57,625 nucleotides of DNA from Phycisphaeraceae bacterium (lineage in GTDB: Bacteria > Planctomycetota > Phycisphaerae > Phycisphaerales > Phycisphaeraceae), in the NCBI GenBank assembly GCA_020849625.1, contig JADLFV010000048.1, forward strand, positions 1 through 57,625, in the 5' to 3' direction. The position numbers and the translations under genes were made by a program. Positions within the stretch are counted from its first letter, which is position 1. Each line of letters starts with the position of its first letter. Shown here piece by piece: positions 29,469-44,452 of the stretch. The notes under the pieces were generated by a model. It was not told the DNA's origin, ran no database searches, and saw nothing but the letters and a program-made list of their open reading frames with translations.

Positions 29469-29993
29469 ATGAACTCAACTAACGCCAAGCCCAAATCCCT
29501 GTTCGCCCGCCATCCCAGGCGCTACGACGTGCCCGCTCTGTTGCTGCTGAGTGCCGTCACGCTGATCGTCGGGTACATGCTGCCGCTGATGAGCATCAGC
29601 AAGCTGGTCTTCTGGCAGGACGACTACACGCTGCTCACCAGCGTCACCGGCCTGTGGAACTCGGGCAACTACATCCTGGCCATCATCATCTTCGTTTTCT
29701 CCATCGTGTTCCCGATCACCAAGCTGACCGCCCTGGCCATCGTATGGTTTAAGCGCTTCGATGATGAAACGCGCAATCGCGTGGTGTTCCTGGTCGGCGT
29801 GCTGGGCAAATGGTCGATGCTGGACGTGTTCGTCTGCGCCCTGTTGATCGTGATGACCAAAGCCAAATCATTTCTCGACGCCGAGCCGCGATCGGGCCTG
29901 TTCGTCTTCGCGGTGGCCATCGCCCTGTCGATGGTGGCGTCGATTCTGGTCGAGCACCTGGCGAAGAAGCAGGCAATAGGCAGTAGGGAGTAG
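29469..29993 (+). CDS. pqiA: PqiA-family membrane protein
   Basis: This 174-residue protein has four membrane helices. ADVPALLLLSAV-like start, GYMLPLMSI and especially GKWSMLDVFVCALLIVM are hallmarks of paraquat-inducible protein A, an envelope/lipid-transport family. Full PqiA has two such units; this is a single-unit form without a PqiB partner here. Its last residues, AIGSRE, and its TAG stop are encoded by the AGTAGGN heptamer repeat that follows, so the C-terminus is repeat-derived. Confidence 0.9.
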   Translation: MNSTNAKPKSLFARHPRRYDVPALLLLSAVTLIVGYMLPLMSISKLVFWQDDYTLLTSVTGLWNSGNYILAIIIFVFSIVFPITKLTALAIVWFKRFDDETRNRVVFLVGVLGKWSMLDVFVCALLIVMTKAKSFLDAEPRSGLFVFAVAIALSMVASILVEHLAKKQAIGSRE

Positions 29994-30060
29994 GCAGTAG
30001 GGTTGCCAATCACGGAGCGTTTAACCACCCTTCTGCCTACTGCCTACTCCCTACTGCCCA
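29974..30060. repeat. AGTAGGN heptamer inverted repeat, copy 1
   Basis: Four 7-nt units (CAATAGG, CAGTAGG, GAGTAGG, CAGTAGG; 29974-30001) face CTGCCTA, CTGCCTA, CTCCCTA, CTGCCCA (30033-30060). The left arm overlaps the end of pqiA and supplies its stop codon. Related arms lie at about 30836-30862 and 41193-41285. Confidence 0.88.
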
Positions 30061-30835: not shown

Positions 30836-30862
30836 CCCTACTGTCTACTCCCTGCTGCCTAT
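30836..30862. repeat. AGTAGGN heptamer arm, copy 2
   Basis: CACCCTACTGTCTACTCCCTGCTGCCTAT-like sequence (ACTGTCT, ACTCCCT, GCTGCCT units) is a degraded arm of the repeat at 30033-30060 and supplies the last codons and the stop of the M20 peptidase gene. The matching left arm near 30810-30830 is barely recognisable. Confidence 0.65.
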
Positions 30863-32218
30863 TTCCCCCAGCAGTTGGGCGTGAATGCGGATGCCCAGGT
30901 GGAAGCGGTCGAGGGCGAAGTGCTCGTTGGGGGAGTGGGCCAGGTCGGTGTCGAGGCCGAAGCCGAGCATGATGACGGGGGTGCCGAGGATGCGCTGCAT
31001 GTCAGCCGCGATGGGGATGGTGGCGCCGCAGCGGGCCAGCAGGACGGGTTCGCCGGTGATCGCTTCGACCACGTGGTTGGTCAGCTTCATCCAGGGTGAA
31101 TCGATGGGCACGGTGCAGGGCCAGGCTTCGCCGTGGTTTTCCAGCTTCCACGTGCAACCGCCGACGTCGTGCGTGTGCAGCCAATCAGTGAACTGCTTTG
31201 AAACCTTGCGGGGGTCCATGTGGGCGGGGATGCGGAAGCTGACCTTGCAGCCGGCGAAACTGGGGATGATGGTTTTAGCGCCGCGTTGCATGTAGCCGCC
31301 GTAGAGGCCGTTGACATCGCAGGCCGGCCGGGTCCACATGCGGGCCGGCGTGCTGAAGCCGGCTTCGCCAAATGGTTCTGCGCCGATTTCGTCGAACCAT
31401 CGGGATTCATCGAAGCCCAGGTCATTCCAGCGTGCCAGTTCGTCATCTTCCGGGGGGGGGACGTCGTCGTAGAAGCCGGGGATGGTGATGCGATTGTTGT
31501 CGTCGAACAGTTTACCGATGACGCGGGTGAGCATGGTGGCGGGGTTGGCGAGTGTGCCGCCGAAGACGCCCGAGTGCAGATCGCGTTTGGGGCCGTGCAG
31601 TTGGACGTCGAAATAGACCATGCCGCGCAGGGCGTAGGTGATGGTCGGTTTGGGGCCTTGCGGAGTGACCCACATGGCCGAGTCGCTGACCAGGCAGAAG
31701 TCAGCGGCCAGCAGGTCGCGATGTTTTTCGATGAAGGATGTCAGGTGGGCTGAGCCGACTTCTTCTTCACCTTCCAGCAGGATTTTCACGTTGAATGGCA
31801 TTTCCCCAGCCATGTGCCAGGCCCGCAGGGCTTCGAGGAAACTGAGCACCTGGCCCTTGTCATCGACCGCACCGCGGGCATAAACGATCCCCTCGCGCAC
31901 CTGCGGCTCAAACGGCGGCGACTGCCATAACTCCAGAGGCTCCGGCGGCTGCACGTCATAATGGCCGTAAAACAGAACCGTCGGTTTGTCCGCAGCGCCT
32001 TTCACTTGCGCATACACCACGGGCGGCCCGCCGGTGGGCATCAGCTTCGCATCCAGTCCCGATTGCTTGAGGTGATCGCAGGCCCACTGCGCGGCCGCGG
32101 CCATGTCGTCAGCACGGGCCGGATCGGCACTGACGCTGGGAATGCGCAGCCACTGCATCAGGCGCTGCTCGGCTTCACGGCTCTGGCGCTCGACGATCTG
32201 CTGGACGGACTGCGACAT
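30845..32218 (-). CDS. M20-family dipeptidase
   Basis: This 457-residue metallopeptidase should be cytoplasmic and hydrolyse dipeptides or acylated amino acids. Zinc-site motifs are FYGHYDVQP (His/Asp), ARGAVDDKGQ (bridging Asp), LEGEEEVGS (catalytic and metal Glu), SDSAMW (metal Asp) and HSPNEHF (final His). DLHSGVFGG marks the dimerisation/lid region of CNDP-type members. The C-terminus IGSRE and TAG stop come from the AGTAGGN repeat, exactly as in the unrelated pqiA. VPPPEDD is encoded over a TTCCGGGGG copy. Confidence 0.94.
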   Translation of the reverse strand: MSQSVQQIVERQSREAEQRLMQWLRIPSVSADPARADDMAAAAQWACDHLKQSGLDAKLMPTGGPPVVYAQVKGAADKPTVLFYGHYDVQPPEPLELWQSPPFEPQVREGIVYARGAVDDKGQVLSFLEALRAWHMAGEMPFNVKILLEGEEEVGSAHLTSFIEKHRDLLAADFCLVSDSAMWVTPQGPKPTITYALRGMVYFDVQLHGPKRDLHSGVFGGTLANPATMLTRVIGKLFDDNNRITIPGFYDDVPPPEDDELARWNDLGFDESRWFDEIGAEPFGEAGFSTPARMWTRPACDVNGLYGGYMQRGAKTIIPSFAGCKVSFRIPAHMDPRKVSKQFTDWLHTHDVGGCTWKLENHGEAWPCTVPIDSPWMKLTNHVVEAITGEPVLLARCGATIPIAADMQRILGTPVIMLGFGLDTDLAHSPNEHFALDRFHLGIRIHAQLLGEIGSRE

Positions 32219-41192: not shown

Positions 41193-41285
41193 GTAGGGAG
41201 TAGGCAGTAGGCAGTAGGGTTCGGATTCGCATGCGTCCCCCTTTTGCAGCCCCTACTGCCTACTGCCTACTCCCTACTGCCTGCT
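41193..41285. repeat. AGTAGGN heptamer inverted repeat, copy 3
   Basis: GTAGGGA, GTAGGCA, GTAGGCA, GTAGGGT (41193-41220) face CCCTACT, GCCTACT, GCCTACT, CCCTACT, GCCTGCT (41251-41285). The repeat separates divergent maf and the ParA-like gene and matches the elements flanking hepT-mntA 11 kb away. Confidence 0.92.
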
Positions 41286-41312: not shown

Positions 41313-42728
41313 ATGACAGCGACAGCACTTGTCCCTCGACGGCCAAGGAAGGCGCGCAGCGTGCGGACCATCGCCATCATCAATCAGAAAGGCGGCTGCG
41401 GAAAGACCACCGTCTCAATCAACCTGGCTGCCACGCTGGCGGCCCAGGGACATCGCACCCTGCTGGTGGACATGGACCCCCAGGCCCACTGTGCCATGGG
41501 TCTGGCGGTGCCCGATGCTCAGATCGAGCGCTCCACCTCCGACCTGATGCGGGCGGGGCTTGACGGCTCGCTCGCGGTGGCGGACATCGTCTGGCAGATC
41601 AGCCGCAACTTCGACCTGGCGCCCTCGACCATTCAACTGGCAGGCATTGAACAGCAGCTATCTGGGGCAGCCGACCGTGATCGCCGGCTGTCCCAGGTGC
41701 TGTCCACCGTGCAGCAGCGCTATGACTTCTGCGTGATCGACTGCCCGCCGTCGATCGGACTGCTGACCTTCAACGCCCTGCGCGCGGCCGACGAGGTGAT
41801 CATCCCCGTGGAGACCGGCTACTTCGCGTTGCAGGGCTCGGTGCGACAGGAGCAGACCATCGAAATGCTGGCCCGCCGGGCTGGTCACCGCGTGCGCTTC
41901 AGCGTGCTGGCCACGATGTACGACGTGCGCACCAAGCTGGCCCGCGAGATCCTCAGTGAATTGAAGCGCCAGTTTGCCGGCAAGCTGCTGCCGGTGGTCA
42001 TCAACTTCAACAGCAAGCTCAAAGAGGCGGCCAGTTTCGGCCAGCCCATCACCGAATACGATGCCGCCAGTCGGGGCATGGCAGACTTCGAGCGATTGTA
42101 CGCCTGGCTGATGGCCAACCCGCCGCAGCCGCCGAGCATGGAAGAATTCGAGGCGGCTGGTGTCGGCGCGGAAGCCAGTGATCCGCTGATCGCCACCAGC
42201 AGTCCGCCCCGCAATGCCGCCATGAGCCGGGCCGCGGAACTGGTCGAACGGGCTCGGGCCCTCAGCGCCCGCACCGCGGCCATCTCCGCCCGCCTCAGTG
42301 CCGATGAAGACATGATCGCTGAAGATCTCAACGAGCCCGCCCGCCCGCCGGTGCGCGTCGATGCTGATCTGAATCCCCTGACCCGGGCCGGCGACGATCG
42401 GCCGACGATCGGCAGCAACGTGCAGGTGCGCGAGCGCCTGAACAGCGTCTATGGCGTTCGCCCGACCACGCAGGGATTGCTGTTCGTGCAGCCGGCCGAC
42501 ATGGCCCGCCGCATGGCGATTGCCGGCGACTTCAACGGCTGGAACCCCGAGCGCACGCCCATGATCGCCAACGAACAACTGGGCGTCTGGCAGGCCTGCG
42601 TCCCCGTGCCGCCCGGCCGCTACCAGTACCGCCTGGTGGTCGATGGCCAGTGGGTGGCTGACCCCTACAATGAGAAGACCGAGTCCAACCCCTACGGCGA
42701 AGTGAACAACGTCATTGAGATAGCCTGA
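41313..42728 (+). CDS. ParA ATPase fused to a glycogen-binding CBM48 domain
   Basis: In this 471-residue protein, residues 15-265 are a ParA/Soj ATPase: INQKGGCGKTT (deviant Walker A), LVDMDPQAHCAMGL, VIDCPPSIGLLTFNAL and ELKRQFAGKLLPVVINFN. A linker with a likely coiled coil (about 300-335, AAELVERARALSARTAAISA) follows. Residues about 395-471 match the CBM48/AMPK-beta glycogen-binding fold: MAIAGDFNGWNPERTPM, PPGRYQYRLVVDGQWVADP and a final N-N-V-I-E-I. No ParB or replication gene is near, so an orphan positioning ATPase that senses glycogen-like polymer is a reasonable guess. ParA is certain, CBM48 likely. Confidence 0.9.
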   Translation: MTATALVPRRPRKARSVRTIAIINQKGGCGKTTVSINLAATLAAQGHRTLLVDMDPQAHCAMGLAVPDAQIERSTSDLMRAGLDGSLAVADIVWQISRNFDLAPSTIQLAGIEQQLSGAADRDRRLSQVLSTVQQRYDFCVIDCPPSIGLLTFNALRAADEVIIPVETGYFALQGSVRQEQTIEMLARRAGHRVRFSVLATMYDVRTKLAREILSELKRQFAGKLLPVVINFNSKLKEAASFGQPITEYDAASRGMADFERLYAWLMANPPQPPSMEEFEAAGVGAEASDPLIATSSPPRNAAMSRAAELVERARALSARTAAISARLSADEDMIAEDLNEPARPPVRVDADLNPLTRAGDDRPTIGSNVQVRERLNSVYGVRPTTQGLLFVQPADMARRMAIAGDFNGWNPERTPMIANEQLGVWQACVPVPPGRYQYRLVVDGQWVADPYNEKTESNPYGEVNNVIEIA

Positions 42729-42800
42729 TTTTCGAATGTCGAATTGCGATTTTCGAATTGGAAATCGTGGTCGATAGAATGCATTCGAAAATCGAAAATC
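42729..42800. repeat. TTTCGAA-word repeat between the ParA gene and its partner
   Basis: TTTTCGAATGTCGAATTGCG and ATTTTCGAATTGG (left) face ATTCGAAAATCGAAAATC (right). It starts directly at the stop of the ParA-CBM48 gene and ends just before the partner's start. Confidence 0.85.
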
Positions 42801-42808
42801 AATCTGTC

Positions 42809-44452
42809 ATGGACGACGAACGCACCAAACAGGCCCTCGATGACCTGGCTGATCTCTACCTGACCGGGATCAGCCCGGATGGTCAGACCGTGCGCAAGAC
42901 CAGCGATCCCCTGGACGCACCGGCCCCCATCCGCCTCAAACCCAAACTCTCCCCCGGAAGTGCCCCCGTCCCCGGAAGTGATCCTTCCGAAGCTGAGGGC
43001 AAATCGCAGCAGCAGCAGCAACTCGACGCGGTCACCGGCGCCCATCGGGCCGCCAACGGCCGAACCGAAGAGGCCCCGTTCCTGCGCCTGACCGATGATG
43101 AGGAATCCAAAGAGTCCGCCACAGCCATCATAGCTCCACCCGAACCGCAGCCCATGCTTGGCGCGCAGGTCGAAGCGGTGCTGCTGGGCAACCTGCCGGG
43201 CGTCAGCGGGCCGTGGCTTCAGCAGTACGCCCAATTGCTGTCCGACCAGAATGGCCCCGTGGCGCTGCTGCACGTGGCGGGTGAGCGCATCGAACTGGAA
43301 CTGGTTGAGCCGAAAAACGCGGTGGGCAAGACCCGGCCGGTGATCGAGATGGGTCAAAGCAGCGACCGTCGCCCGGCCATCGTGGCGCTACTCGAAGCAC
43401 TGGTGCGGGCTGGACAAAGCGCGGTGACCAGCGTGCTGGTGCACGTGGAGCCGGCCCTGGACGGCACGGAAGCTCTGCGCCTGTTCGCACTGGACGACTG
43501 GACGCTGCTGTGCGGAGCGGATGACGCTTCGATCATCAGCGCCTATCGCATGCTCAAGCAGCGTGCGGAAACGGACGTCACCGTATCGGACAAGCGCATC
43601 GGACTGATGATCATGGGCAGCGAGCAGTCCGTCGCTCAGTCCGCCGCGGCCCGCATTCGCAGCGCGTCGGAGAGTTTCCTGAACACGCCGGTGCGGTTGA
43701 TGGGCTGGCAGAAGCAGATGGTGCCGGTGCACGTTCGTCGCCTGGGCACATTCGAAGGCGTCAACCAGGTCTGGCCCAAGCTGTGCGACTGGTTCGCCAC
43801 GCTCGAGCGCCCGCAGGTCGAGCAGATCGAACCGGCCGCCACGGCGGAGGGCGATTCATCGCCCGTCCCGCACCCGGAAATGAAAAAGTCCGCATCGACC
43901 GCCCCGGAACGCAGACCACAGCTTCCGCGCCGCTCCCGCATCATGGATATCCCCGCGCCCGCCAAACCAGCCGAGCGCCCGAAGCGCGAACCGGCCTCCA
44001 TACCTGCCCCGGCGCCCGTCACCGAGCCATCCGCCATTCGCGATTCCGGGGGTCCGCCATCCGCCATCCCCTCTCTGTCCGCCCTCATCACCACCCTTCC
44101 GGGGGCCATCGCCCTGGAAGCCCGATGTCCCCAACTTCCGGGGGTCGAGATCGTGCTCGATCAACGCGGCGTCATGCACCTGCTGCACCGCGAAGCTGAC
44201 AACCTGCAGAGTGCCATCACCGAACTGCTGTCCGCACGCCAGTGGGCGGTCGAGCACCGCCAGTTGCTGGCTCTGACCCAGCGGCAGTTGAAGCTGGACG
44301 CCGACGCGGAGCCGATGCTGCACCTGTTCACCGGGCGCTGCGAACAGGCCACCGCCTTGGTGGCCCGACTGGGTGATCAATTCAAGCTGCACCTGCTGCG
44401 GCAGGTCGCTGTGGGCAGCCAGTCCACCTGGTTCTGCGCCCCACTGAACTGA
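42809..44452 (+). CDS. Unknown partner of the ParA-CBM48 protein
   Basis: This 547-residue protein has no recognised family. It begins MDDERTKQALDDLADLYLTG. A Pro/Ser/Gln-rich linker with two CCCCGGAAGT copies (SPGSAPVPGS) follows, then a possible alpha/beta domain (about 130-320; LLGNLPGVSGPWLQQYAQLL, VALLHVAGERIELELVE, IGLMIMGSEQS). A second Pro-rich linker full of repeats (EGDSSPV, SAIRDSGGPPSAIP) leads to a C-terminal domain (about 425-547; GVMHLLHREADNLQSAITEL). The first domain has the look of a degenerate P-loop or MinD-related fold, but I see no Walker A. It probably works with the ParA-like protein, 80 bases upstream. Confidence 0.72.
   Translation: MDDERTKQALDDLADLYLTGISPDGQTVRKTSDPLDAPAPIRLKPKLSPGSAPVPGSDPSEAEGKSQQQQQLDAVTGAHRAANGRTEEAPFLRLTDDEESKESATAIIAPPEPQPMLGAQVEAVLLGNLPGVSGPWLQQYAQLLSDQNGPVALLHVAGERIELELVEPKNAVGKTRPVIEMGQSSDRRPAIVALLEALVRAGQSAVTSVLVHVEPALDGTEALRLFALDDWTLLCGADDASIISAYRMLKQRAETDVTVSDKRIGLMIMGSEQSVAQSAAARIRSASESFLNTPVRLMGWQKQMVPVHVRRLGTFEGVNQVWPKLCDWFATLERPQVEQIEPAATAEGDSSPVPHPEMKKSASTAPERRPQLPRRSRIMDIPAPAKPAERPKREPASIPAPAPVTEPSAIRDSGGPPSAIPSLSALITTLPGAIALEARCPQLPGVEIVLDQRGVMHLLHREADNLQSAITELLSARQWAVEHRQLLALTQRQLKLDADAEPMLHLFTGRCEQATALVARLGDQFKLHLLRQVAVGSQSTWFCAPLN
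43847..43866. repeat. 20-mer shared with 14499-14518
   Basis: GAGGGCGATTCATCGCCCGT lies in frame (EGDSSP) inside a proline-rich linker. The other copy is intergenic. It is self-complementary and so could itself be a small palindromic element. Confidence 0.8.
44026..44067. repeat. In-frame heptamers with embedded TTCCGGGGG
   Basis: Six 7-nt units (GCCATCC, GCCATTC, GCGATTC, CGGGGGT, CCGCCAT, CCGCCAT) encode a Pro/Ser/Ala-rich linker. Twenty bases (44041-44060) are identical to 25487-25506 in the GTPase gene. Confidence 0.87.

Follow-up and report, generated by a model that had tools for sequence, protein, structure and literature searches.

In the 57,625-nucleotide stretch of Phycisphaeraceae DNA analysed here (the window), a Soj-like ParA ATPase with intact motifs, extended at its C-terminus by a CBM48 module with intact ligand contacts, was found to be encoded directly before a predicted pseudo-ATPase derived from FlhG/FleN. 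ATPases of the ParA/MinD type position many bacterial cargos, and the sequences of this pair suggest that it may position alpha-glucan stores, or read them. Our preferred reading, which we hold tentatively, is a nucleoid-based positioning of alpha-glucan bodies or of their enzymes.

A ParA ATPase fused to a CBM48 module

The fusion gene lies on the forward strand at 41313-42728 (ATG at 41313, stop at 42728) and encodes a protein of 471 amino acids, with the start in most relatives falling at the equivalent of 41361, the first base of the ParA/Soj-type ATPase domain (41361-42122, forward strand; residues 17-270). The sequence-only reading had taken this domain to be intact from its KGGCGKTT motif, and this held up: residues 18-189 matched AAA_31 above the curated Pfam cut-off (6.5e-49), and the deviant Walker A motif KGGxGKT[T/S] with its signature Lys is present as KGGCGKTT at residues 26-33, along with Asp55, the hydrolysis Asp of Soj, and Asp143. 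The signature Lys and GKTT were kept in 28 of 28 homologues, and Asp55, which aligns with the DPQ motif and D44 of Thermus thermophilus Soj, in 27 of the 28. A PDB sequence search matched the N-terminal part of the protein to Soj/ParA (5e-47 to 3e-41) and Foldseek matched its ParA domain to a Soj model (1.9e-27), with Soj its nearest relative. Of the two positions that are usually basic in the presumed DNA-binding loop of Soj, one is non-basic in ParA-CBM48, the first Arg/Lys aligning with F/N, and K235 and K237 are mostly kept. AlphaFold2 predicted the ParA and tail domains mostly at pLDDT above 90 and most of the linker between them at low pLDDT; the linker includes a predicted helix (42219-42302, forward strand; residues 303-330) with a recurring RAAEL.ERAR.LS.R motif.

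The tail is a CBM48/AMPK-beta glycogen-binding-type module (42453-42725, forward strand; residues 381-471), as had been proposed from the letters, and its identity as CBM48 is genuine on the combined weight of Pfam profiles, matches to PDB sequences and residue conservation. Residues 399-470 matched AMPK1_CBM (PF16561; 3.6e-13, 50.0 bits against a curated cut-off of 26.8), the tail also matched CBM_48 (PF02922; 2.4e-9, 37.8 bits against 22.4), so that profiles for both halves of the fusion scored above their curated cut-offs, and residues 381-470 matched AMPK-beta chains in the PDB sequence search. Structure prediction had been suggested as a further check, and here AlphaFold2 gave a beta domain at high confidence, but the match list of the structural search with the fusion protein was filled by ParA chains.

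W410 and W447 of the tail correspond to W100 and W133 of AMPK-beta1, and R440 and N465 to K126 and N150, which we take to be their counterparts. In AMPK-beta, Trp100 and Trp133 bind glucan, and plant PTST depends on the equivalent Trp residues to bind starch (PMC4339375). Among 28 homologues assembled by whole-tail similarity and not by contact-residue motifs (set A2), W410 was kept in 27, R440 in 27, W447 in 26 and N465 in 24; a few tails have contact residues missing; L074, for example, lacks W447 and L075 lacks both Trp. The invariance of these residues in a second set of 64 sequences (A5) was discarded as evidence, the patterns used to fetch that set having contained them.

The adjacent gene encodes a predicted FlhG-derived pseudo-ATPase

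The next gene (42809-44452, forward strand; ATG at 42809, stop at 44452) encodes a partner protein of 547 amino acids with no match to any Pfam or NCBIfam family. Its ordered parts in the AlphaFold2 prediction are three: a net acidic N-terminal helix (42818-42865, forward strand; residues 4-19) with a conserved D.LADLFLTG motif, a middle domain (43157-43816, forward strand; residues 117-336, of which 117-332 are ordered in the model), and a C-terminal alpha/beta domain of high pLDDT (44081-44449, forward strand; residues 425-547), which matched no Pfam family and was related by profile to neither ParA nor FlhG.

The middle domain has the FlhG/FleN fold of the MinD family. In structure searches, whose match lists covered mainly residues 117-336, the partner aligned with FlhG (4rz3) by VIA-align at Z 11.6 (rmsd 4.3 over 166 residues, 16% identity); ranks 1-7 were all FlhG/FleN (Z 9.8-11.6), with subsequent rows at 7-9, and Foldseek gave a match to the MinD/FlhG fold at 3.6e-7. 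The partner profile also aligned with the genome's own FlhG-like protein (hhalign probability 96.8, E 2e-10), whereas control alignments with shuffled FlhG gave a probability of at most 0.6 and other proteins of the window gave nothing. No relation between the partner profile and ParA was detectable by profile comparison. The Walker A motif GxxxxGK[ST] was found in 0 of 45 partner copies adjacent to the ATPase gene, its place being taken by GNLPG..GPWL (GNLPGVSGPWL in the window). By fold and profile the partner is thus best described as a pseudo-ATPase derived from FlhG/FleN, a flagellum-positioning ATPase, a kinship that the sequence-only reading overlooked in leaving it as an unknown partner.

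Known partners of ParA/MinD ATPases have a positively charged, disordered N-terminus, and they are so diverse that many of the ATPases stay "orphans" (PMC10241942). The N-terminus of the present partner, in contrast, is mostly acidic across 45 partners (median net charge -3) and is predicted to be helical.

Pairing, neighbourhood and distribution

The prediction that the partner would be kept beside ParA-CBM48 was borne out: of 99 loci, 47 had it as the next gene, directly 3' and on the same strand, and none had it in any other position. These comprised 45 distinct adjacent pairs with a median gap of 37 bp, and no other neighbour family was nearly as constant across the 99 neighbourhoods. In three genomes (G384, G540 and G548) the gene directly before the partner codes for a ParA of about 330-350 amino acids, too short to hold the CBM, which shows that the pairing is independent of the CBM. 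Conversely, ParA-CBM48 without a detectable partner was common outside the order and occurred in several lineages.

The remaining neighbours vary by lineage, with maf/lpxK/hldE and dnaJ/clpB in the window's own family and aroB in other Phycisphaerales; an aroB-like gene lies directly upstream of ParA-CBM48, on the same strand, in 13 loci from these other Phycisphaerales (for example L106). Glucan genes showed no regular linkage to the pair, no flagellar or division genes were conserved near it in the 99 neighbourhoods, and no microcompartment family recurred among the 25 neighbour families seen most often in the 99 loci. In one genus of the window's family, a gene for a GH57 branching enzyme lies 4-5 kb upstream of ParA-CBM48 (L190:6562-8295 and L191:5171-6874).

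Across Phycisphaerae the ParA-CBM48 fusion is widespread. When 392 genomes of the phylum were searched with the tail, almost every sampled member of the family, order and class had it, and a scan of named genomes returned almost exclusively Phycisphaerae (Phycisphaeraceae, Phycisphaerales, Sedimentisphaerales) or planctomycete bins. Some tail match was present in 235 of 248 genomes of the class, the weaker ones including other CBM48 proteins. Beyond the class, the fusion turned up in G058. Of the 48 genomes sampled from the window's order, 46 had the partner; in the rest of the class its matches were weaker and confined to part of the genomes, and some of the weak, short ones are probably FlhG. 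One ParA-CBM48 gene sits on a contig of 3.7 kb that bears the label Candidatus Kuenenia stuttgartiensis (L136), through either wrong binning or transfer.

Separate ParA, ParB and FlhG genes in the same genome

No ParB gene adjoins ParA-CBM48, in agreement with the earlier observation that none was present; the sole ParB_N gene of the genome is solitary and lies on another contig (C31). A canonical, tail-less ParA, also solitary, lies on contig C128, and an FlhG-like gene lies in a flagellar cluster on contig C88. As the genome has separate canonical ParA, ParB and FlhG genes, the ParA-CBM48 pair is an extra system. Compared with Helicobacter pylori Soj, the C128 ParA scored 162 bits and ParA-CBM48 129 bits; with T. 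thermophilus Soj, too, the C128 ParA was slightly ahead. The canonical ParA and ParB (L078:9203-10240 and L077:8927-10129) are each solitary on different contigs.

Alpha-glucan genes

Neither a canonical GlgA nor a GH13 GlgB was found in the window's genome, and no genome of the order had a TIGR02149-type synthase above the cut-off. An initial conclusion from the missing GlgA and GH13 GlgB, that there is no glycogen metabolism here, was withdrawn, as the genome encodes a branching enzyme of family GH57 that carries a BE_C domain, two phosphorylases (including GlgP), an amylase-like GH57 protein and a candidate synthase of family GT4 whose glycogen-synthase matches are weak.

Free-standing CBM48 proteins of 115-125 amino acids, 42-46% identical to the tail, were found directly after GT4 and GH57 genes in three genomes (L187:4913-7848, L188:7356-10337 and L186:6593-9766), with an alpha-glucan phosphorylase near one of the three clusters. 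In the same three genomes the tail was matched in long, ParA-sized frames as well, and a fourth free-standing copy (47% identical to the tail) has no GT4, GH57 or phosphorylase neighbours. These conserved clusters may represent an alternative pathway for alpha-glucan in Phycisphaerae that lack canonical GlgA/GlgB, and the window's genome has homologues of their GT4, GH57 and phosphorylase genes. Because the contact residues are kept, free-standing relatives of the tail lie in glucan clusters and the genome has glucan enzymes, an alpha-glucan is the likeliest ligand of the tail.

Neither type of branching enzyme was found in the three genomes with CBM-less ParA, nor in several CBM-bearing genomes. 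A correlation across the order between loss of the CBM and loss of branching enzyme, judged by eye, was suggestive at best, came from genomes that share descent and was not used.

Possible function of the pair

In the positioning reading, ATP-bound ParA dimers would bind the nucleoid, the CBM48 would hold alpha-glucan chains, and the partner would dock on ParA by its N-terminal helix, its FlhG-like domain or both, regulating the ATPase. Glucan particles, or enzymes bound to glucan, would thereby be kept spaced along the nucleoid and split between daughter cells; the pseudo-FlhG would serve as adaptor or regulator, and the glucan would be the cargo. A Soj-like ParA with its catalytic residues, the kept CBM contacts, the glucan clusters that contain relatives of the tail, the glucan enzymes of the genome, a partner kept as the next gene and the standing of the pair as an extra system all point this way, and we favour the reading tentatively. 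Against a simple storage-granule story are the lack of canonical GlgA and GH13 GlgB and of regular glucan-gene linkage, the absence of the CBM from three relatives that keep ParA and partner, and the many ParA-CBM48 genomes in which the partner was not found. The mostly acidic partner N-terminus and the non-basic position in the presumed DNA-binding loop also count against the positioning reading. The stronger proposal of a dedicated machine that partitions or spaces storage glucan, in which ParA would grip alpha-glucan through its CBM48 under the control of an inactive FlhG-derived ATPase and which would be widespread in Phycisphaerae, is doubtful.

The main rival is a glucan-sensing switch, in which the CBM48 would serve as a regulatory input as in AMPK-beta, altering ParA cycling or partner binding with the level of alpha-glucan, and the positioned cargo would be something else, such as the chromosome or division or envelope machinery. 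The tail is most AMPK-beta-like by Pfam, the CBM is separable in evolution from the ParA-partner pair and glucan genes are as a rule unlinked, all of which would suit a switch; yet no candidate for its cargo emerged, the conserved neighbours differing between lineages, and we consider it rather unlikely. That the CBM48 fold serves another ligand or protein docking, in a system unrelated to glucan, would accommodate both its broad retention in genomes without canonical GlgA/GlgB and the few tails (such as L074 and L075) that lost contact residues. This is improbable when the residues conserved are those that contact glucan, and when free-standing relatives of the tail are located among glucan genes.

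The match of the partner to FlhG/FleN in fold and profile, and its retention where the CBM is lost, could instead indicate an FlhG-like polarity or division factor, acting in a mixed complex of ATPase and pseudo-ATPase that positions an envelope or polar structure, with the CBM as an accessory. Known A/D ATPases, however, are described as restricted to homodimerisation (PMC10241942), and the lack of any conserved flagellar or division gene nearby further makes this a distinctly improbable account. Least probable of all is that ParA-CBM48 is a chromosome-segregation ParA with a decorative tail that uses the genome's unlinked ParB: although its nearest structures are chromosomal Soj proteins and the ParB on C31 is solitary, the tail-less ParA on C128 outscores it against both Soj proteins.

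Relation to known systems

The fusion has the ATPase domain, Walker A motif, hydrolysis Asp and overall fold in common with Soj/ParA of T. thermophilus, H. pylori and others, but adds a C-terminal linker helix and CBM48, has one basic position of the presumed DNA-binding loop replaced and lacks an adjacent ParB; relative to ParABS, parB is unlinked here. Like McdA/McdB it places a ParA-type ATPase beside a lineage-specific partner, additional to the chromosomal ParA, but the fusion matches McdA more weakly than Soj, no microcompartment genes lie nearby, and the partner differs from McdB in its ATPase-derived domain and acidic N-terminus. The partner's middle domain shares fold and profile with FlhG/FleN, but the partner lacks their Walker A (45 of 45 adjacent copies) and carries in addition the N-terminal helix and C-terminal domain. 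PTST and AMPK-beta, which the tail resembles, are non-catalytic CBM48 proteins with two glucan-binding Trp (PMC4339375); neither has a ParA ATPase, PTST acting through a coiled coil and AMPK-beta within a kinase.

The open-access PMC literature that was searched described neither a CBM48 on a ParA ATPase nor an FlhG-derived dead ATPase as partner, and these two features mark what is otherwise a variant of ParA/MinD positioning. In this pair, an orphan ParA motor with its own carbohydrate-binding module has a partner whose fold marks it as an inactive relative of a different positioning ATPase. If the link to glucan is true, these bacteria, which have an unusual cell biology, would either position and pass on their carbon reserve as cargo or use it as an input to the organisation of the cell.

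Repeats in the window

Two sets of repeats were observed in the window. Intergenic inverted repeats with 7-base steps (CTACTGC/CTACTCC) occur at 41193-41285, 29968-30055 and 30838-30863, with 12 matches across the window where 0 would be expected. Repeats of a second type, TTTTCGAA, lie between ParA-CBM48 and the partner gene (42726-42801) as well as elsewhere, with 15 matches against 0.6 expected.
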